Below, one piece after another: positions 3,001 through 62,945 of a stretch of 64,000 nt of DNA. This stretch comes from Daphnia pulex (Eukaryota; Arthropoda; Branchiopoda; Diplostraca; Daphniidae). Location of the stretch: positions 2,046,001 through 2,110,000 of the forward strand of contig NC_060020.1 of the NCBI RefSeq assembly GCF_021134715.1, in the 5' to 3' direction. The notes under the pieces were generated by a model, which saw only the letters and a list, made by a program, of their open reading frames with translations, was not told where the DNA came from and did no database searches. Numbering within the stretch: the first letter of the stretch is position 1; each line of letters starts with the position of its first letter. Made by a program: the position numbers and the translations under genes.

Positions 3001-4449
3001 AATTATGACTAACAGGAGAAGAAGAGAGTTCGTGTCGTCGACTCTTATGAAACTTGTCATCATATTTACAAATAAAAACCCAAGAGAAACCCAAACACGA
3101 GAACAAAACTTGGCATAAACCCTTTCATTACAGGCGATCGGTCATCGAGAAAAAGAACCGGAATTTCTTAGATATTTTTTTTTCCCCCAAAGAAGAAGAG
3201 CACCGCAGGGGCCAACGATGAAGTATTGCTGCGTATAGAGCACACAGACACACGAAACAAAAAAATAAATAAAAATAGTTTGGCCGGCAACAGGCCAAAA
3301 TTGCATAACTGCATACATTTCATTTCATTATAAAAACCCTTTCTCCTTTCGTCTCCTCCCTTGCATATCCCCGAAACAAAACGAAATCAAAAGAGAACCA
3401 AGGCGATAAACAAGGAAACGAGAAAGAGAATAAAGAGAAAAAAAAAGGCTCGGCCATCCGGACGTAATGTTTCTGCTGAAAACGAAGAAGAAGAACTCAC
3501 GTCTACTTCTATATATATACATGTAACACACACACAAGGGCGGTCATTATCTTCTTGTGTGTTCCGCGTTGTGAGCTGCTGTACATCTTTAAACGGTTGT
3601 GAGTGTATGTTGTTGTATACACGGACACAGAATAAAACGCCAAACCGTTTCCTTCATCGTTTGTCACGATGAGAAAAAAAGGAATACCTCATAGGTATTA
3701 TTTTTCATTTACCTATTTTGAGATTTACTTTTGTCTATTCTACGCTCGTTATAAATAATATCATTCCAGTATGCGCGTGAGAGGTCGCCAACCAGCTCCG
3801 GACTTTGGACCCTTGTGTCACTAGGATATTTGTCGCTTAGCTTCATCCTCAATTTTCTTTAATTTTTTTTAACTCTTCCAGACGTCCAAACGAACTTAAT
3901 GATTCGAAAGAACTGGCCTCATGCGGCGATGTTGAAGGGGCCAGTCTTTTATCACACCGTGGAGATATGGGAAAGTGATGAAGGGAATACGAGGGGAGAC
4001 AAAATAAATTTAAAAACAAAAATGGAAATCAGGCGCGGAATGGCTGCGGGGAGGGACGCTTATCCTCAAAATGGATTTTTCACTTTTGTCATCGTAAAAT
4101 GAAATTTTCAAAAAAATAAGGTAAACGCGCCAAAAGAGGCGAGAAAAATGTCGCTGTATAGTGCAGAACTTCAGACATAGCCTACGTTATTAAAAATCTG
4201 TTTAATTTATAATCGGAGGGATGGTGGATGGATGGATGAGAAATAAACACAGACACACCTGATGAGCGTTAAGGCTACTAAGTAATAGTGATAAACGACC
4301 GTCTGGATAAAAAGCCCAATGCGCCCCGAGCGGAAATATCTTTTCAAAAAACACTGCGGCCTCGGCCACCATAGAAACCGACGACTATCCAATAAGAAAC
4401 TTTGAAACAAACAAATTAGGAACCGAAACAAAACAAAACAAAAAATAAC

Positions 4450-4472: not shown

Positions 4473-7400
4473 GAAGAAAAAGGACGCCAACAAAACGGCT
4501 GAAGATAAACTGCGCCAGGTGATAAGGAAGCGAGACGTGAAAGCGCGTCGAGATGATTGAGTCGTGTTCGGGAGAATAAAAACAACAACCGTTTTGATTG
4601 GGTTCTATAAACAGAGTTTTGGTTTTGTTTTTTTATTATTATTTTCTTTAAGTGGCCGTTGAATGCAAAGAGAAAAGCAAAGAAAAAAACAAAACAAACT
4701 ATAAGGCTGCTGCTGCTATTTACAATTGGATGAGGGACATAAGCGATGCAGCAATAGCTATCGTCCAGCACTTTTGCTCGGCAGCACGTCCATTATGTAA
4801 GCAAATTACAATCCGGCGTCTATCTCGTTTTCTCTATTTGGTTTATTTATACGCCAGCAGAGAAAAGGACGAGCGCACAAAAAAAAAACAGCGATCCGCT
4901 CTGGTGATCATCCGCACCACCATACAGATCTCTTCCAATTTCATTTAATATTTTTAAATTCTCTCAAATAGACGAGACAGAGAAAAAAAGAAAGATTATT
5001 ATAAGAGAGAGTGCAGCGGAAATGGTCTGCTGCTCATCGTATTATCCAAGGGAAAAATATATAAGGAAGGCGCGGCCATCGACCAGCACGGGGCGGTAAC
5101 GAACGCGGGACTTAAAAACATTCAACAGCGCCTAAACACAAGAATAATACACACCACTACAACAGCGCCTACACAATAATAAAGTAGAGTGGCAAACGCG
5201 CATCTAATTTGGATGGCTCTATAACGCACTAAATACCGGGGTCGGTCATCTATTCTGTTTCGAACCTTTTTTTGTTCTTCTTCGCCCTTCCACGTCGTCA
5301 ATTTTCACCTTTGTTTTCATTTCATTTCATTTGTTTTTTCTCGCAGAAAAAAAAAACAAAAAATAATACAGTGCTGAGCCGACGGTGATTAAGGGCGAAC
5401 GATGAGAGTGGAAGGAAGTGCTCCAGTAGTCTCCCCGGTTCTTCCCCTGTTGTTACAATACCAAATTTTGTTTCCATCCCACCTCGGCAAAGCCAACCGA
5501 CACGGACGCATTTTATTTCTTTATATTCCAACCGATTTCCATCATCTAGGGGAATACCGCCGGAATACAGAGAACAGAAACATCACCTATATATTCTTCG
5601 AGGTCTGGTAACATGTAATAATTCCTCTTCTTTGGGGCTCGTCAACTGTGTTATATTTATATCCCGGTTGGTGCGTGTGTGTGTTCCTCCTCTATCCCTT
5701 TCCCCCCAGTGGCTCATTAACATTAATTAGTTCTCTATTTTTTTTCGGGGACGAACCAACGACCGAGCCCACGTATTTTGATGTCTTTTCTCACAAATCT
5801 TTTTGTGTTCGTCGTTTTTTTTTCCCCCCGCAAATTTCGGACTGTGGGCCGTTGGGTCCTTTTTGATGGACTCACTGGAACGTGTACGGGGCGACACTTG
5901 CGTTGGCTTATTACGTCGACTGGTTGATTACTGGGTAATATACATTTATATAATATAATATACTATAGGAGAGCAGAGCAGGTGTCCGGGCGCGATGCAA
6001 TCTTTGATGTGGTCAATGTTTTATTGAGCGTCAAATTTTAGTTCAAAAAAGCTTTCGCTGCTGATTTACTGATTCAAATGAGGTGCTCTGCGTGCAACCA
6101 GCCAGGCAGCAATAGTACTCACGACACAATACACACACACACATGTAACCGGCCAGAGTAGAGTCTATCTTTGGCAGCCATCGCATGTTGGATTCCGTCC
6201 GCTAATGTAGTGCGCAAAAAAGAAAAAAAGCCCTTCACACTCGTTGGCCTTTTTTAATTTCATTTTTTTCGTGTCGTTCATTAAAACATTTTCAAGTCCG
6301 TATCTGATGGCTATCACGTGCTCCATCCAGCCGGACCGAAAGCAAGGAATCAAATAAGACAAATGCAGTAGCAACGACATACAGCAGCAGAAGCCACTAG
6401 GACGAAATTGCTCCATGGACTGAAATGATGGATCCGTGGCCGTGGAAAAAATAAAGAAGTCCCAAAAGTCCCGAAAGTTATAAGACCAGCAGTCGGCCAA
6501 CGTCCGCATTTGTGGCCATAGCGTGAAAGATTTCACTCGGCTGACTCGGAACTGCCGTCCGCCTCATCTATTCAACACCCGATTTCAATCTAGCCACCAT
6601 CTCATTAAGGCCCATATTGTGTGTCAGACTCTCCCGAAAAAAAAAAAAATAAATAAAAAATCTCTGGCGCTATAAGAATGCGCCAACAGGACACGCTTCT
6701 AGACTCATATTTTTATGGGGTCCATCCAGCGCCAGTCTCCGCAGTTGGCGCTCGTAAATTACCGATAATAACTGAATTGAATGTTATTACGTCTGATGTT
6801 GAAGTCACGGTCTCAGGGATAATTTTCTTGGCGCAAAAACAATAAGACAAAAGCGAATGATTTAAAAATAAAAAAAACCACCCGACAACAGTAATAACCT
6901 CTAAGCTATGCAGACAGTTTTTTGTTGTTTCGTTTTGTTAGTGAAATAAACACTCAACTCTCCTCTTGATCGAGATCCGAAAGATAGTCGACACACAATT
7001 TCTGAATGAATCACAATCTTGTTTTTTTGTTTTTGAAAAACTTGATTGAGATTCTCTTTCGGAGACTGACACACTCCAGCACGCCTTTTGGAACGTGCAT
7101 ATCCCAACCCAGACGGAGATGGAAGCCAGGCATGTATAAATATAGCAGCAGACTAATAAGAGAATCTGACCCCGGAGCTACAAATCATTTGATATAGGTG
7201 TGACTCCCCAACCGAAAACGAAATCATAACCGTAGTCCAGAAAACAATGATTCAGGTGAAAGTATTTTTCTTTTAAAAGCTTCTCGTTGTTTTTTGGGCA
7301 TCCAGATCGTTATAATTTTTTCCATCATCTTTTTTTTGGGTGAGAGAATTGATCAAGGGTCGGTCGTTTATAAGGAAGTGATACACATTTGCCCATATCT

Positions 7401-43740: not shown

Positions 43741-44697
43741 TCAGTGCCTCGTGAGAAGTTCGGCCAAGGCGCCGATGTAAGTCTGTGCCATTTGAAGCGT
43801 TTCGAACTTCGAAAGTTTGCGGTCGCTGCCCAGCGCGGGCACGACCTCTCGGAGTCTCTCGAAGGCGTCGTTCAGGCTGTTCATGCGCCGCCGTTCTCTG
43901 GCGTTGGCGGCCAACCGGCGCTTCTTGACCACCTCGACGGTCGGCACTTTGGTCGAGCGACGTCGACTTCCGCTGCTGCTGTTGCTTCCGCCGCTGTTGT
44001 TTTTCGGCGTCCGCGGCGTCCGCGTCTTGCGCTGCCGTTTCTGCTGGGCGGACGACGACGATTTGGCTTCGGCCGATGGGCTGGCGCAAGATTCCAGCGC
44101 TGCCGAATTGGATTCCATCGTCGCTTCCGACTCGCCGTCGTCCGTCCACAAGGACGAAGGGCCGCCAAACTCGCCGGCGTTCGATTCTTCCTGATCGGTG
44201 GCGACGGACGCGCTGTACTTGTCGTCGGACGCCACCACCGACGCCGGACCACCGCCGCCATCCATGCCCAGTAGGCAATAATCGACGGATCCGATGGGGG
44301 TGCTGCTGGAAGGTCCCGGAGTGGCCAGTCGGCTGTGCTGATGCGAATGCGGCAGCGGGTCGTTGCCGGTCCGCGTCAATTCCGTCAGCAGCCGCGGAGA
44401 TGAACTGGGTGACCTCAGACTGGCCCACGACTGAGCCGAGACGGGACTCTGGCAATTCGTGTCGTCGTAAGAAGCCGAGCTGTTGTTGTTGTTGCCGCCA
44501 TGATTGTTTCCGTGGTTGGTAGCGCTGGTATTGTTGTTGCTGCTGCTACTGATGCGGACGCCTTCCTCGGCCGTAAAACCCGTCGAGTGGTGGTAAACGT
44601 CGTGAACGACGTAGGCGGCCGGCGCGTAATATCCATGAGCGTCCGCGTTGCCCATCAGATCACTGGAGCCGAACTGAGAGTACATTTCCAAAGACAT
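43741..44697 (-). CDS. ato: Atonal-family proneural bHLH transcription factor
   Basis: An intronless 318-codon frame. The C-terminal end (about residues 256-315) is a basic helix-loop-helix domain. The basic region reads [12 protein letters not shown] and is followed by helix 1 ([16 protein letters not shown]), a short loop, then helix 2 ([21 protein letters not shown]), with the protein ending three residues later. [12 protein letters not shown] and the [10 protein letters not shown] helix match the Atonal/ATOH1/ATOH7 group rather than NeuroD or Neurogenin. The N-terminal 255 residues are low-complexity: Asn/Ser runs at about 51-75, Ser-rich and acidic parts, and a Lys/Arg/Ser stretch at 218-250, as in other Atonal proteins, which are conserved only in the bHLH. 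Family members dimerise with Daughterless/E proteins on E-boxes and specify sense-organ and photoreceptor precursors. The start at 44697 is the first Met; Met5 is an alternative. The stop is TGA at 43741-43743. Frames on the opposite strand are shadows of this GC-rich gene. Confidence 0.93.
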
Positions 44698-45199
44698 TTC
44701 GTCCTCTTTCTTTTTGGTCTTCTTTTCCTTATCTTCTTCTTCTTCTTCTACTAAAAACTCGTTTAAAACCTTTTTCTTTTCCGAACGTCAATTTCGTTTC
44801 TCTTCTTCGATTGGCAAAATGGGGGGAAATTTCAAATAGAAGAAGAAGAGCAGCAGCACTTTGGGGATTTCAAATCACTTGGGGATCTTCATCACCGTCT
44901 TCGGGGGGAGTGTGGGACGACATTTAAAAAATATCGAACAAGACAATTCAATATCTTGCGTGTGTTTGAACTCCCGCACGAAAAATTGAATAATAATAAG
45001 AAAAAAACCCTCTTATTTCTTCCCGGTGTGTGTGTGATTGTTAAAAAATAAATAAAAATGTGGTGGCGGTGAATGCGCGTGTGTGTGTTAAGTGCGTCGA
45101 GGAAATGACGGTCCTATCTCTCGCCGTGTGGAGCGATAAGAGCGTGTGACTGCACCGACTGCTGACGGTGTACTGGATGAACGGTGGGAGGGCCAGTGA

Positions 45200-56687: not shown

Positions 56688-59279
56688 TTAGCCAACCGGT
56701 TCCGTTTCTCTCATAAGCCAATTCAAGCCTTCTTTTTTGTTCATCTTCTGTAAAAGAGGCGCTACTTTATCGCGACACTGGGTATGGTATTGGTCGATGT
56801 AAGCAACCTGAAATAACGACACAGGTTATTTTTTATAATTTATGATACGAATAGAAAGTTGATTATACCTCTTCCTTGGTCAACATTTCAGCAATGATCC
56901 TGCAAGAAAAAAACTGTTCTTTTAAAAATGCTCTCACGAATTTATCTGATAAATTAAACTTACATCTTTTGCTGGATGGGGACAAAAGTTAGATTTTCAA
57001 AAGTGCAAAATTTGCGGTCTTTGAAATTGTTCTCGGGTTTGGCTGGCACGATTTTAACCAAATTTTCGATGCGAATTCCGAATTCTCCGTCTTGATAAAA
57101 ACCTGGTTCATTTGAAAGAACCATATTCTCGCTTAGACCCTACCAAATGAAACAGTAAATTATAACAAGAACAGGTGACGTCAACAGGATTTATACCGGA
57201 TCGTCTGGGTAAACTCTCCAAGAAATTCCCATTGGGCCTTCGTGAACGCAGAGGTAATGTCCAACTCCGTGACTCGTGCCATGAAGATAATCAAGGCCAA
57301 CGTCCCACAAAGCCTTGCGCGCCAAAACATCCAATACATTGCCCTGTGGAAATTGTATTAAATGTTAAAAGCAACCTTCGTTCTAGAAACTCTACGGGCA
57401 CGTGTTACTTTAATTTTGGATGGGAAAAGGCAGGTAGCCAAACTCATTTGACCCTTCAGAACGCGGGTAAAACATTGGCGCTCAAAGGGTGTAGGGCATC
57501 CAAAATGTACAGTGCGTGTTACGTCAGTTGTGCCATCCTTGTACTGGCCACCGGAATCACAAAGGTAAATTTCGCGATCATTAATGGGACGGTCCGTCTC
57601 AGGACTGGGTTTGTAATGAATGATAGCTGCGTTGGAACCCGACGAACTAATCGTGTCAAAACTCAAACCAACAAAATCGGCTTGCTCAGCACGAAAGCCA
57701 GCTAGTTTATCGGCGGCAGATATTTCAGTCACAACTCGCTGCGATTCAACTTCTTTCTCCAACCAAGCAAAGAAACAACAGAGAGCAGCTGCGTCCTTGA
57801 TGTGTGCGTTTTCCATGCCTACAATAGTACACATTCACCAAAAGAAGATTAAAGATGATGGGACACAAATAAATATAAGGAAATAAACGTCATACCGGCC
57901 ATCTCGACTGGATTCTTGATCGCTTTCATGAAAACAACAGGCGACACATCACTACAAAGGATATCTTCAGCAACTAGATTTGAAAATGCGACTGCACTTT
58001 TGTCGCTTATCCAGATCTTCTTCGGTTGCTGTGGAATCTGTCGACAAATCAGCAAAAACAAACAAAGAAAACAAGTCAGAATGCATTTTTCTTTCTTGGT
58101 TATGATCGCTCATGAATGTACTTCAGCAGCCAAGAATCCGTCAACATCCTCGTACGGGTGTAGAATAGCCAATACATTGTTGTTGGTCTGAGACGAAACC
58201 AGTTCTGCCATTTCAACGTCAGCTTCCAGATTTAAATGCTGTCTAACCGAGAGTGTCACTTTAGATGGGTCGACGAATAAATGAATTTCTCCATTCGTTT
58301 TGACCAGCGCCCACGAGAAAAATACAGGATTGTACTGAATATCCGAACCACGTAAGTTTAGCAACCCTAAATCAGTTGAATGTATAGGCTAATAGTTAGT
58401 CTCCTTCTAGTTGATCCATTGATTTTCACTTACATGCAATATCATCAAGAGCAGTCAGCAATAACAAGGAACAGTTTTTGGCATCCATTTCTTGAATGAC
58501 ATCTTTAACTTTGTCTTGCCAAGATTTACCTGGTGCAACGACGACGAAGATTAAATAACACGCTTGTCAGTAACATACTAATTCAAATAAAACTTACCAG
58601 TAAATTCAATTCCAAGAGGTTGAATAACATGGGATGGAGGTGGGGGTTTATCATCCCAAATGGCATCTACTATATTCCTTTCCACTGGAACCAGAATGTG
58701 GCCATTGGATTTTAGAGTTTTTGATAAAGGAGTCCATTGGTCTTTGGAAAATAGTCTTGGATCCACACCAACTTTTGATCCTACTGGTAATGTTTTGGCA
58801 AGCCAAGCTCCTTGAGTTGGAGTAGTAGGTATACCTAATGAAAAATATTATATTAGGTAATTTCATTAATAATTTCTTTAAAAATATATACCTTCTTTCA
58901 TTAATGTCCAATTTGCATCCAATTGTTTCTCAGCTTGATTGAAGTAACGGCCATCAGTCCACAGGCATGCATCTGTTTCTGTTATGACAGCCGTACCAGC
59001 TGAACCAGTAAACCCAGAGACAAAAGCCCTACGCTGATCACTGTCAGCTAAATATTCACTCTATAAAAGTTTAGAGAAGAAGACACACTCAATTAAGTGA
59101 ATTATGGTTAATGTAACAGTTGCATCTTAAAATATGAGAATTGAGACAAAAGACCAGCCAACCTGATGTGCATCTCCACTTGGTACAATGTAAGCTTGGA
59201 TAGCTTCCGTAACGAAAGTTGTATCTTTCATCAAACTCCGAAGACGTTTTAGAATTTGGGTAGTCTGTTTAGCCGCCAT
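56688..59279 (-). CDS. XPNPEP1: Cytosolic Xaa-Pro aminopeptidase (aminopeptidase P1)
   Basis: Eleven exons on the minus strand: 59163-59279, 58892-59060, 58598-58834, 58434-58529, 58122-58366, 57896-58037, 57409-57818, 57197-57343, 56964-57139, 56869-56899 and 56688-56807. All introns are GT-AG (57-102 bp) and all joins keep frame: 629 residues, against 623 in human XPNPEP1. The enzyme removes the N-terminal residue from peptides with proline second, using two Mn ions. Two creatinase-like domains come first ([37 protein letters not shown]), then the pita-bread catalytic domain. The five metal ligands are Asp423 and Asp434 (in [12 protein letters not shown]), His497 (HGTSHGVG), Glu532 (NEPGFY) and Glu546 (GIRIEN). 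There is no signal peptide, which favours the cytosolic form. The Met at 59279 fits the position of the human start. The gene is divergent from RPB10, with a 2.6-kb mobile element between them. Confidence 0.97.
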
Positions 59280-59554: not shown

Positions 59555-59581
59555 TAGGGTAATGTCTCAAAATCTGGACAG
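59555..59581 (+). repeat. Left terminal inverted repeat
   Basis: Starts TAGGGTAATGTC and ends TCTGGACAG. It pairs with 62146-62172 at 22 of 27 positions. Confidence 0.8.
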
Positions 59582-60209
59582 GCCTGAACGCTACAAATTT
59601 TGGACAACCGAAGAAATTTTGGTTTAAAAGTCCTATATGATGAGCAAATATCGCGAAAACTATACCATTATGAAGAATTTTTGCTATTCTATCTGGGTTT
59701 GCAAAATATTTACTCTAAATGCCTGAAATCTCAGGAAATTATTAAAATAAAATTTCTGAAAAGAACTTAGAAAATATGAAGTTTCTTGGCCTCATAAATC
59801 AAGCTGGAATAACATTTCTAGATGATATTTCTTGCTGTTTTAGGGCTCAAACGAAAGAATTTTGTTCATTCTTCACATTTCAGTACTTAAAACTGCGCCA
59901 AAACTGCAAATTCATGGAAGAAATCTAAGTAGAAGCTTGCTGGCGATAAATCCCATTACACAAAAGCTGGACACCCCCCCTTTCTAAATCTGGACAACTG
60001 TAGAAGCCACAGGGTGTCGCTAGTTGAGGTGTACGCCACATTTCTTCGTTCTTTTTAATTTCAGCTTCTTGACATCTGAAAGCAATTATGTTTATACTGA
60101 TCTCATTCGTGTCTTATCTATACATTCAATAAAATATACTATAATAAAAAAAAAAAAATAATTGCTTTATTTTGCCATTGCATTTAAACAATTTCATAAT
60201 TAGCAAGCT

Positions 60210-60365
60210 TCCACAGTTGTATGGTAAGGGGCTTTCTTTGGTAATAGTTTGGATTTTGGGTGTCTCAAGGTTCAAATCCAAATCTCAACATAAATTTTTT
60301 CATGAAAATAATTTGGAAATTGCCTAAGGGTGTCCAGAATTTATAACACGCTAGGGATAGCGTGG
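60210..60365 (+). repeat. tRNA-like module 1 (forward)
   Basis: The B-box-like sequence GGTTCAAATCC is at 60269-60279. A weak A-box-like part (GTTGTATGGTAAGGGGC) lies about 45 bases upstream. The shared tail (CATGAAA, TTTGGAAAT, TGTCCAGAATTTATAACACG, then CTAGGGATAG) ends near 60360. It is the most diverged of the forward tails. Confidence 0.65.
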
Positions 60366-60437
60366 AAATATATTCTTTTTTCAACTTAGATCATTAAGCA
60401 AAATATATAGACATCTAATCTGCATTAGATTATCATT

Positions 60438-60589
60438 CGTAGCCGTATCGGTATAGCGTCCAACTATTGATCGGCCTTTTCACGGGGCACAGGTTCAAAT
60501 CCTTTTTGCTCCAAGGATTTTCTTTTTATAAAGTATTTGGGCATTGCCTAGGGCTGTCCAGAATTTATAACACGTTAGAGATGGCTTGG
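60438..60589 (+). repeat. tRNA-like module 2 (forward)
   Basis: A-box-like TAGCCGTATCGGTATAGCG starts near 60440, and B-box GGTTCAAATCC is at 60492-60502. The tail with CTGTCCAGAATTTATAACAC runs to about 60588. The part between the boxes differs completely from the other modules. Confidence 0.7.
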
Positions 60590-60660
60590 TTATTTTTTCC
60601 TTTTTTTATCTTTGATCATTCTTGAAACTATTCAACATTTGTCATTCATTAAAAGAAGTC

Positions 60661-60817
60661 ATGTAGCTAAAATGGTAAAGTGCCGTTCTGCCGAAAAAAT
60701 GGTTTTATCATCAGTATGTAGGTTCGAATCCAGATTCCTTTAAAACTCTTTTTCATGAAATAAATTTGGAAATCGCCCCAGGCTGTCCAGAATTTATAAC
60801 ACGCTAGAGATGGCTTA
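60661..60817 (+). repeat. tRNA-like module 3 (forward)
   Basis: A-box-like TAGCTAAAATGGTAAAGTG (60664-60682) and B-box GGTTCGAATCC (60721-60731) both fit the Pol III tRNA promoter consensus. The shared tail ends with AACACGCTAGAGATGGCTTA near 60817. The segments cannot be folded into a full tRNA cloverleaf, so this is a tRNA-derived sequence rather than a tRNA gene. Confidence 0.75.
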
Positions 60818-60890
60818 GAATTTTATTATTTTAAAAACTTCTATCATTTTAAAAATCAGATTAACATCGATTTCATTTTCTGATAACCTA

Positions 60891-61016
60891 TATAGCTATG
60901 TCGGTAAAGTGCTTACTTCCTGATAATGTTTACGATTACGGCCATGGTTCAAATCCCATTCCGAAAAATATTTTGCATGAAATATATTATGAAGCGGAGA
61001 ACGCCCAGAATTCAAA
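60891..61016 (+). repeat. tRNA-like module 4 (forward, truncated tail)
   Basis: A-box-like TAGCTATGTCGGTAAAGTG (60893-60911) and B-box GGTTCAAATCC (60946-60956). The tail is degenerate (CGCCCAGAATTC) and runs straight into the reversed modules, marking the centre of the inverted array. Confidence 0.65.
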
Positions 61017-61020
61017 ATTA

Positions 61021-61116
61021 CTTTCATGAAATTGATTTCAACTGAAATAGGATTTGAACAACGGCGCCGATAGTGACGACCGTTGGAAAATATGCACTCT
61101 ACCAACAGAGCTATAG
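61021..61116 (-). repeat. tRNA-like module 5 (reverse, best A-box)
   Basis: On the minus strand, TAGCTCTGTTGGTAGAGTG (61096-61114) is almost a textbook tRNA D-arm/A-box, with a possible GCTC/GAGT stem. The B-box-like TGTTCAAATCC is at 61050-61060. The T-arm and anticodon arm do not pair well, so a functional tRNA is unlikely. Confidence 0.7.
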
Positions 61117-61185
61117 CGACTGTTAGTGAGAGAAAAAGATGTTAATATGTTTTGAAAAATTATGAAAGTTTTAAAAATAATAAAT

Positions 61186-61346
61186 TTCTAAGCCATCTCT
61201 AGCGTGTTATAAATTCTGGACAGCCTGGGGCGATTTCCAAATTTATTTCATGAAAAAGAGTTTTGACGGAATCTAGATTCGAACCTAAATACTAATGAAT
61301 AGATCAAGTTAATGGCAGGCCAGCACTTAACCATTCCAGCTACATG
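61186..61346 (-). repeat. tRNA-like module 6 (reverse)
   Basis: The shared tail is at 61189-61260, the B-box GGTTCGAATC at 61275-61284 and the A-box-like TAGCTGGAATGGTTAAGTG at 61324-61342 (minus strand). Confidence 0.75.
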
Positions 61347-61415
61347 ACACGTTATAAAGAATGAAAAATGTTGTAATAATTTGAAGAATGATCAAAGATA
61401 AAAAAGGAAAAAATT

Positions 61416-61575
61416 ACCAAGCCATCTCTAGCGTGTTATAAATTCTGGACAGCCTAAGGCGATTTCCAAATGAATTTCATGAAAAAATGTTTTTGCTGAT
61501 TCCTGGATTCGAACCTAGGAATTATAGTTTAACCTCAACTTCTCAGGCAGGCCCTCAACCACTTTAGCTACATGG
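61416..61575 (-). repeat. tRNA-like module 7 (reverse)
   Basis: The shared tail begins at 61419 (reads CCATCTCTAGCGTGTTATAA on plus). B-box GGTTCGAATCC is at 61505-61515, and A-box-like TAGCTAAAGTGGTTGAG at about 61553-61569 (minus strand). Confidence 0.75.
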
Positions 61576-61645
61576 GTAATCACTGTGCAAGGCAAGTATT
61601 GAAATATTTTGAAGAATGATGAAAGTTCCCAAAATAATAAATTTT

Positions 61646-61803
61646 CATGCCATCTCTAGCGTGTTATAAATTCTGGACAGCCTGAGGCGATTTTCAAATG
61701 AATTTCATGAAAAAATATTTTATTCAATCCTGAATTCGAACCTAGGAACCCTTGGTTAACTTTAACACTTCAGGAAAGCCTTCAACCACTTTAGCTATGT
61801 GGG
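61646..61803 (-). repeat. tRNA-like module 8 (reverse)
   Basis: The shared tail starts at about 61649. B-box-like GGTTCGAATTC is at 61732-61742, and A-box-like TAGCTAAAGTGGTTGAAGG at about 61778-61796 (minus strand). It is closest in sequence to module 7, suggesting recent tandem duplication. Confidence 0.75.
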
Positions 61804-62145
61804 TCGAAAATTTACTATGGTAAGGGTAACTTTAAACCATAATGCTGACCAATATTTTCAGCATAGACTATGAAAATGGTCTTAGATCACTCTGAGAGAG
61901 GTATAAATTAAAACTGAATTGATGAAAACGTTATTATTATGGTGCCACTTTATGCGTTTATTTTATCACAATCACAGTCGAATCATTCAAAGAAGACCCG
62001 TTTTATTAAGTTGTGGTTTCTGCTCATAGATGGCGCTGGTGGCTGTCCAGAATTTTTACAAACTGTCCAAGATTTTTGACGGTTGTCCAACTTTAGGAAG
62101 ACGTTTGGCCTATCTCAAGCACGCAAATATGACATAGCCACAAAA

Positions 62146-62172
62146 GTGTCCAGAATTAGTGACACTACCCTA
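62146..62172 (-). repeat. Right terminal inverted repeat
   Basis: The reverse complement starts TAGGGTAGTGTCAC and ends TCTGGACAC, matching the left end at 22 of 27 positions. The outermost TA is shared with the left end. Confidence 0.8.

Positions 62173-62945
<773 letters not shown>

Follow-up and report, generated by a model that had tools for sequence, protein, structure and literature searches.

A probable non-autonomous, TA-inserting DNA transposon of Daphnia pulex with a mirrored array of tRNA-like promoter and end-motif units

As described in the cited sections of the literature, the transposase binding sites of Galileo, a P superfamily element of Drosophila, recur in the tandem repeats of its long ends, and these many sites have been proposed to give the transposase its specificity (PMC3688188). 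Tetris, a foldback element of Drosophila virilis, has internal repeats of ~220 bp and target site duplications (TSDs) of 8-10 bp, and was assigned to Mutator by its authors (PMC4079207). Both lineages of Pokey, a piggyBac element of Daphnia, contain 2-5 repeats of ~200 bp from the ribosomal DNA (rDNA) spacer, for which the authors suspect a role (PMC3849761). MER6 is a mariner miniature inverted-repeat transposable element (MITE) with a short interspersed element (SINE) part, the captured sequence excluding the tRNA-related head (PMC6887750), and Dada comprises DNA transposons, named after zebrafish and Daphnia, whose insertion targets are small RNA genes, including tRNA genes, with TSDs of 6-7 bp (PMC3706591). 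A 2010 list of DNA transposons in Daphnia pulex has Tc1 and Pogo families among its entries (PMC2884549). Here we analyze an element at positions 59555-62172 of a 64,000-nucleotide stretch of the D. pulex genome (contig NC_060020.1, positions 2,046,001 to 2,110,000; hereafter the window), which carries a mirrored array of tRNA-like modules within terminal inverted repeats (TIRs). No title or abstract opening among the open-licence literature matches listed names a DNA transposon with such an array. The best explanation, to which as a whole we assign a probability of about 0.65, is that the window element is a TA-inserting, non-autonomous DNA transposon whose interior consists of a duplicated unit combining an RNA polymerase III (Pol III) type promoter with the element's own end motif.

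Each of the systems named above shares part of this design. Galileo and the window element both carry repeated sites for which transposase binding is putative or proposed; Galileo differs in belonging to the P superfamily, in not inserting at TA and in placing its repeats in terminal arms, and the cited part of its description mentions no Pol III boxes (PMC3688188). Tetris is likewise non-autonomous and modular, with internal tandem repeats of ~220 bp, few complete copies and no autonomous partner found according to the sections cited, whereas its TSDs and its placement in Mutator set it apart, and tRNA and polymerase III are absent from its text (PMC4079207). Pokey, as presented in the sections cited, is a DNA transposon with two diverged lineages that both contain repeats derived from RNA genes; it differs in its TTAA target, in that its repeats are rDNA spacer upstream of the transposase, and in that no end motif is described within them there (PMC3849761). 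In MER6, Tc1/mariner-type ends also surround SINE-related sequence, but the cited account describes a single SINE-derived region without a tRNA head and without a mirrored array (PMC6887750). Dada resembles the window element as a group of DNA transposons tied to small RNA genes and differs in inserting into such genes; its U6 and U1 families are without terminal inverted repeats, and the sections cited describe no internal gene array (PMC3706591). Taken together with Pokey, the window element hints that arrays of RNA-gene parts may recur in Daphnia transposons.

The 59555-62172 interval is a single transposable element, its ends coincident with those of other copies recovered by searches of the whole genome (133,188,837 bases in 13 contigs). 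The window copy is designated A_win, and the others are named by subfamily and contig (A_C3, A_C9, A_C10, B_C6, B_C7 and B_C9). An initial annotation of this DNA had proposed TIRs matching at 22 of 27 positions with TA at both edges; both features were confirmed, and the copies with the same ends that it suggested seeking do coincide with 59555 and 62172. A second full A copy sharing both ends lies on contig C3 at 96% identity; the copies on C10 and C9 measure 2376 and 2386 bp, each without one unit of the array; and a shorter, diverged A copy of 1515 bp occurs on C7 in two duplicated places. The first 26 bases of the left TIR are identical in the C3, C9 and C10 copies. Across the four intact A copies the outer parts are 98.4-99.2% (left 640 bp) and 98.6-99.7% (right 365 bp) identical, and these near-identical copies have therefore moved recently. 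Subfamily B, with three complete copies (2572, 1973 and 2572 bp) and one left half, shares A's plan of forward units, centre and reverse units, and its outer sequence is 55% identical to that of A over the left 640 bp and 72% over the right 150 bp. The array and the TIR frame belong together: they occur jointly in the four intact A copies and in the duplicated C7 pair, and the design is repeated in B. No transposase is encoded inside the element, whose longest stop-to-stop frame is 81 codons; this short frame, the near-identical copies and the TIRs would fit a MITE, for which movement would presumably occur in trans.

Insertion at TA is documented by flanks and by empty sites. None of eight insertions shows a direct repeat beyond TA, save one shared T in four. 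The joined flanks of B_C9 align almost over their full length with nine other places. Eight of these were read, and every one keeps the insertion point undisturbed: seven have a single TA there and one (L066) has AA. Empty sites with a single TA, another check proposed in the initial annotation, were thus found for the B_C9 insertion, and the element therefore inserts at TA. Such insertion is the habit of Tc1/mariner-type elements, and both the TA target and the TIRs agree with that superfamily, pogo included. Neither the 8-10 bp TSD of Tetris nor the 6-7 bp TSD of Dada appeared in the insertions compared and the empty sites read, and the TTAA target of Pokey and piggyBac was absent across the insertions compared.

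B_C9 itself sits at the centre of another repeat with many related copies in the genome, whose inverted 2-kb arms are 99.5% identical (positions 1-1988 and 4693-6689 of locus L031, C9:2066500-2073500). This palindrome is not favoured as a product of the element, the insertion point occurring element-free in at least eight copies of the other repeat.

Profile search and repeat search both resolve eight homologous units, arranged as the initial annotation had described: four on the forward strand (60207-61014) and four on the reverse (61008-61803); the unit profile was built from those same eight units, and the repeat search finds arms of 328 nt (60633-60960 and 61046-61373) that are 79% complementary. 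Foldback elements such as FB, Galileo and Tetris are marked by long inverted repeats with tandem repeats inside them. Here the mirrored tandem array is internal, separated from the left end by ~650 bp and from the right end by ~370 bp, and the repeat search listed no long inverted repeat of the outer parts. A typical unit consists of an A box, a B box starting 51-57 bp later, a T run 0-21 nt past the B box and then a tail reading TGTCC-A/C-GAATTTATA-A/G-CAC; a T run is absent from the 60 nt inspected in one unit of the B left half. We defined a full module as an A box with at most two mismatches, a B box with at most one, tRNA-like spacing and a T4 run within 28 nt. An A box and a B box at this spacing are present in seven of the eight window units, six of which also have the T4 run, so that the earlier statement that most modules carry both words holds at these thresholds, with the qualification that the A box of module F1 is poor. 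Full modules number six in the window element and five in B_C6 (means in 200 dinucleotide shuffles, 0.0 and 0.005), and the remaining 61 kb of the window contain none. A chance origin of the boxes is rejected by the shuffles and by the remainder of the window, which is free of full modules.

The second component of the unit is like the end motif: TGTCCAGAATTAGTGACACTACCCTA at the right end resembles TGTCCAGAATTTATAACACGCTAGAG in the module tail, and in subfamily B end and tail both hold TGTCCCGAATT. Counted on both strands, A_win contains 14 TGGACA words (shuffle mean 1.1) and no GGGACA, and in B_C6 the situation is reversed, with 13 GGGACA words (shuffle mean 1.0) and TGGACA absent. The remaining five A copies carry 8 to 14 TGGACA, and the other two complete B copies 13 and 11 GGGACA with no TGGACA. 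From the left end the sites lie at 21, 47, 414 and 437 bp in A and at 21, 47, 413 and 436 bp in B, where the site at 47 bp reads GGGACG; from the right end they lie at 21, 84, 104 and 124 bp in A and B alike. Each unit with an intact tail has one word, oriented opposite to the end sites of its own half. One of the left sites of A falls within a 56-bp block (Table 1) that stands out in the comparison of the two subfamilies. All eight non-array sites differ between A and B by the change of T to G with GGAC kept, and their flanks are 57% identical. Homogenisation among repeats could carry such a change through the modules but would hardly reach eight sites that each retain distinct flanks. The simplest cause of a base difference that affects the set as a whole is a change in a single DNA-binding protein, presumably the transposase, and sites co-evolving with such a protein would show this pattern.

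The array gains and loses whole units, as is seen directly when copies are compared. A_C9 is without the F3-type unit and A_C10 without the R2-type unit; B_C9 equals B_C6 in length with one forward unit fewer and one reverse unit more; and B_C7 has lost ~600 bp of its middle. A central inversion in B_C9 relative to B_C6, suspected from the unit positions, was rejected in favour of unit gain and loss. In a tree of 56 units, for which the program warned of a long branch, every A unit is separated from every B unit (100/100). The A units mostly group by array position across copies, R2 and R3 being left unresolved, and this grouping makes it very likely that the A array existed before the A copies spread. 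F4 groups with R1 (98/90) and F3 shares one unresolved fork with R2, as would be expected if the centre arose by inverted duplication.

Conservation within the units is a mosaic. Among the eight A_win units identity is 69% in the A box, 41% in the spacer between A and B boxes, 88% in the B box, 64% from B box to tail and 95% in the tail; the corresponding values among B_C6 units are 79%, 55%, 87%, 80% and 98%. When A_win is compared with B_C6, identity is 88% in both the B box and the tail and 39% in the spacer. This pattern bears on the principal rival explanation, in which the array is a passive passenger: a tRNA-like gene would have been captured once beside the end motif and spread in the manner of a satellite, its boxes now without a role and intact through youth. 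The coming and going of whole units fits this account, as do relics elsewhere with decayed modules, boxes plus tail being retained in just L039, L051 and L053 among 14 loci scanned; internal repeats of many elements, moreover, expand without known function. Youth, however, would protect every part alike, and the youth of the copies alone is therefore insufficient for a spacer so much less conserved than the B box and tail of the same element, in both A_win and B_C6. We consider the passenger account rather unlikely.

A different account treats the boxes as extra recognition words of the transposase or of a host protein that resemble A and B boxes by accident. Neither ARAGORN (no tRNA in the window) nor Rfam (no tRNA match) makes a tRNA call, and the cloverleaf stems are unsupported: over 41 distinct units, acceptor pairs form in 115 of 287 cases (112.4 with partners shuffled) and outer T-stem pairs in 51 of 123 (57.0). 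These results, which reject true tRNA genes, also speak for the recognition-word account. Two distinct words in the right order and 51-57 bp apart from start to start are, on the other hand, the layout of a type 2 Pol III gene, and several modules of subfamily B match the A-box consensus with 0 mismatches; accidental resemblance is accordingly improbable.

The mirrored arms might instead exist to make long double-stranded RNA or a cruciform. The single-strand DNA fold of 60633-61373 is far stabler than those of 20 shuffles (z -24.9). The modules of both arms nevertheless read in the same sense, and Pol III transcripts would therefore be repeats of one RNA rather than complementary strands; the initial suggestion that transcription from both arms could yield double-stranded RNA finds no support on this point, and a hairpin RNA would need read-through across the centre. 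B_C9 and B_C7, moreover, have unequal arms and are 98.3-99.8% identical to B_C6 outside the changed units, which points to recent spread without a balanced mirror. A hairpin function is very improbable. Least credible of all is an array of SINEs inserted successively into a transposon, for although the heads carry internal A and B boxes, a trait of tRNA-derived SINEs, and diverged units are present in other repeats, separate searches with the heads of two typical units gave matches inside these elements only (A head, 8 of 8; B head, 6 of 6), tail spacing within each arm is regular (218-219 bp in B_C6, 224-229 bp in the window copy), and the tails resemble the element's own end. With the whole A unit as query, 26 of 37 matches fall in A copies and 11, diverged, in other repeats. 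The SINE identity implied in the initial annotation is thus not upheld, whereas its proposal of a foldback transposon that captured and amplified a tRNA-derived sequence stands as regards the DNA-transposon frame with TA edges and the amplified, mirrored, tRNA-like array.

Under the best explanation, the non-autonomous transposon with a two-part unit, tandem and inverted duplication of one unit would have built the element's inside, each unit combining a copy of the end motif with a head that resembles a Pol III tRNA gene in its A box, B box and T run. A transposase supplied in trans would bind TGGACA in A or GGGACA in B, at about four sites per end and one per typical module, and the array could serve as a multi-site landing pad, as proposed for Galileo's long, internally repetitive ends. 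The A and B boxes most likely bind TFIIIC and may be transcribed into short RNAs; by recruiting TFIIIC and Pol III they would give rise to short, tRNA-sized transcripts. Such recruitment would probably keep the element in open chromatin, and the use of Pol III and TFIIIC, rather than a tRNA product, would be what maintains the boxes. Accessible DNA is our preferred guess for the role of the promoters, with passenger status as the main rival.

The two-part make-up of most units suggests that Pol III promoters are retained jointly with mobilisation signals, as a single repeated part. Tandem repeats inside transposons are commonly regarded as clutter; here two diverged subfamilies keep one two-part unit. 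The scattered set of words that differs by one base (14 in the window copy, 13 in B_C6) amounts to a natural experiment on joint change of a transposase and its binding sites, and the array makes it possible to ask in concrete terms whether Pol III promoters benefit a DNA transposon. More speculatively, and at a strength that we would call doubtful, the element may have made the Pol III machinery part of its life cycle, TFIIIC-bound DNA keeping it open or gathering its sites into one complex, so that boxes and transposase word form one selected cassette. If true, this would define a class of DNA transposons whose mobilisation enlists RNA polymerase III.

Several observations weigh against the best explanation. 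The two central units, F4 and R1, are without an intact tail, and A_C10, the one A copy of the other five with any GGGACA, has one such word beside 13 TGGACA. The T-run condition is weak, since 33% of the 28-nt windows of the A element and 27% of those of B_C6 contain TTTT. A-box identity between A_win and B_C6 is just 47%, little above the spacer, and would count against a shared A-box word, though the loose consensus is matched within each subfamily. The use of Pol III might be incidental. No autonomous partner with the same ends was present among the matches listed from searches by ends and by DDE families, so that the autonomous DDE relative envisaged in the initial annotation was not recovered. 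At least 77 DDE_1/DDE_3 places exist; one lies within 30 kb of the 58 end or fragment places entered, which are part of all such places, and this one is 5.5 kb off and has three stops. The mariner-type family PF01359 gave no match anywhere, controls included, and is hence uninformative.

Diverged units without element ends, which occur in other repeats, also weigh against it. The initial annotation had allowed that the array and the TIR element might be unrelated; the coincident ends of the other copies reject this, but such end-free units do exist. The profile detects diverged B-type units at 11 loci within L034-L060, a list from which the full A copies L049 and L050 were left out; among the 11, a clear left end is present in L051 and a clear right end in L044; a relic at C7:6759044 (L039) also has a right end. 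Units thus occur lacking a complete frame, as would be expected of old relics, and right-end fragments inside larger repeats, such as L034 and L035, are probably relics as well.

One or two diverged modules are also present in another repeat family (L015, L016, L017, L025, L026, L027 and L028). These seven loci showed no element ends, and the three that were scanned for boxes, L015, L025 and L028, no intact boxes plus tail. In L039 the standard module is followed at 3880-3936 by a second, different tRNA-like stretch with A-box-like and B-box-like words.

Table 1. Positions of the element, its ends, array modules and TGGACA words, in window coordinates.
Feature	Position	Strand	Description	Basis
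Whole element, subfamily A	59555-62172	none	2618 bp counting TA at both edges; non-coding	copies with coincident ends
Left TIR	59555-59581	+	contains ATCTGGACA	22/27 identity to right TIR
Left terminal word	59575-59580	+	TGGACA, putative transposase word	word scan
Subterminal word	59601-59606	+	TGGACA	word scan
56-bp block	59921-59976	+	89% identical between A and B (left 640 bp overall 55%)	subfamily comparison
Subterminal word	59968-59973	+	TGGACA	word scan
Subterminal word	59991-59996	+	TGGACA	word scan
Module F1	60207-60369	+	poor A box, exact B box, T6, tail with TGTCCAGA at 60331	profile and box scan
Module F2	60434-60592	+	A box 1 mismatch, exact B box, T5, tail with TGTCCAGA at 60555	profile and box scan
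Module F3	60658-60820	+	A box 1 mismatch, exact B box, T5, tail with TGTCCAGA at 60784	profile and box scan
Module F4	60886-61014	+	A box, B box; degenerate tail CGCCCAGA	profile and box scan
Module R1	61008-61118	-	A box, B box 1 mismatch, no tail; groups with F4	profile, box scan and tree
Module R2	61184-61347	-	A box 2 mismatches, B box 1 mismatch, T5, tail site at 61217	profile and box scan
Module R3	61413-61576	-	A box 1 mismatch, exact B box, T6, tail site at 61446	profile and box scan
Module R4	61642-61803	-	A box 1 mismatch, B box 1 mismatch, T6, tail site at 61674	profile and box scan
Subterminal word	62044-62049	-	TGGACA (TGTCCA on +)	word scan
Subterminal word	62064-62069	-	TGGACA	word scan
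Subterminal word	62084-62089	-	TGGACA	word scan
Right TIR	62146-62172	-	contains TTCTGGACA	22/27 identity to left TIR
Right terminal word	62147-62152	-	TGGACA	word scan

Ordinary genes lie nearby in the window, including an HLH transcription factor exon (43744-44787, minus strand) and a Peptidase_M24 exon (57361-57834, minus strand). An Rpb10/POLR2L-type gene starts ~340 bp to the right of the element, with exon 1 at 62512-62607 (plus strand, PF01194) and a second exon, read by eye, at about 62837-62942. The Rpb10/POLR2L subunit is common to Pol I, II and III, and the proximity of this gene to the element is probably a coincidence.

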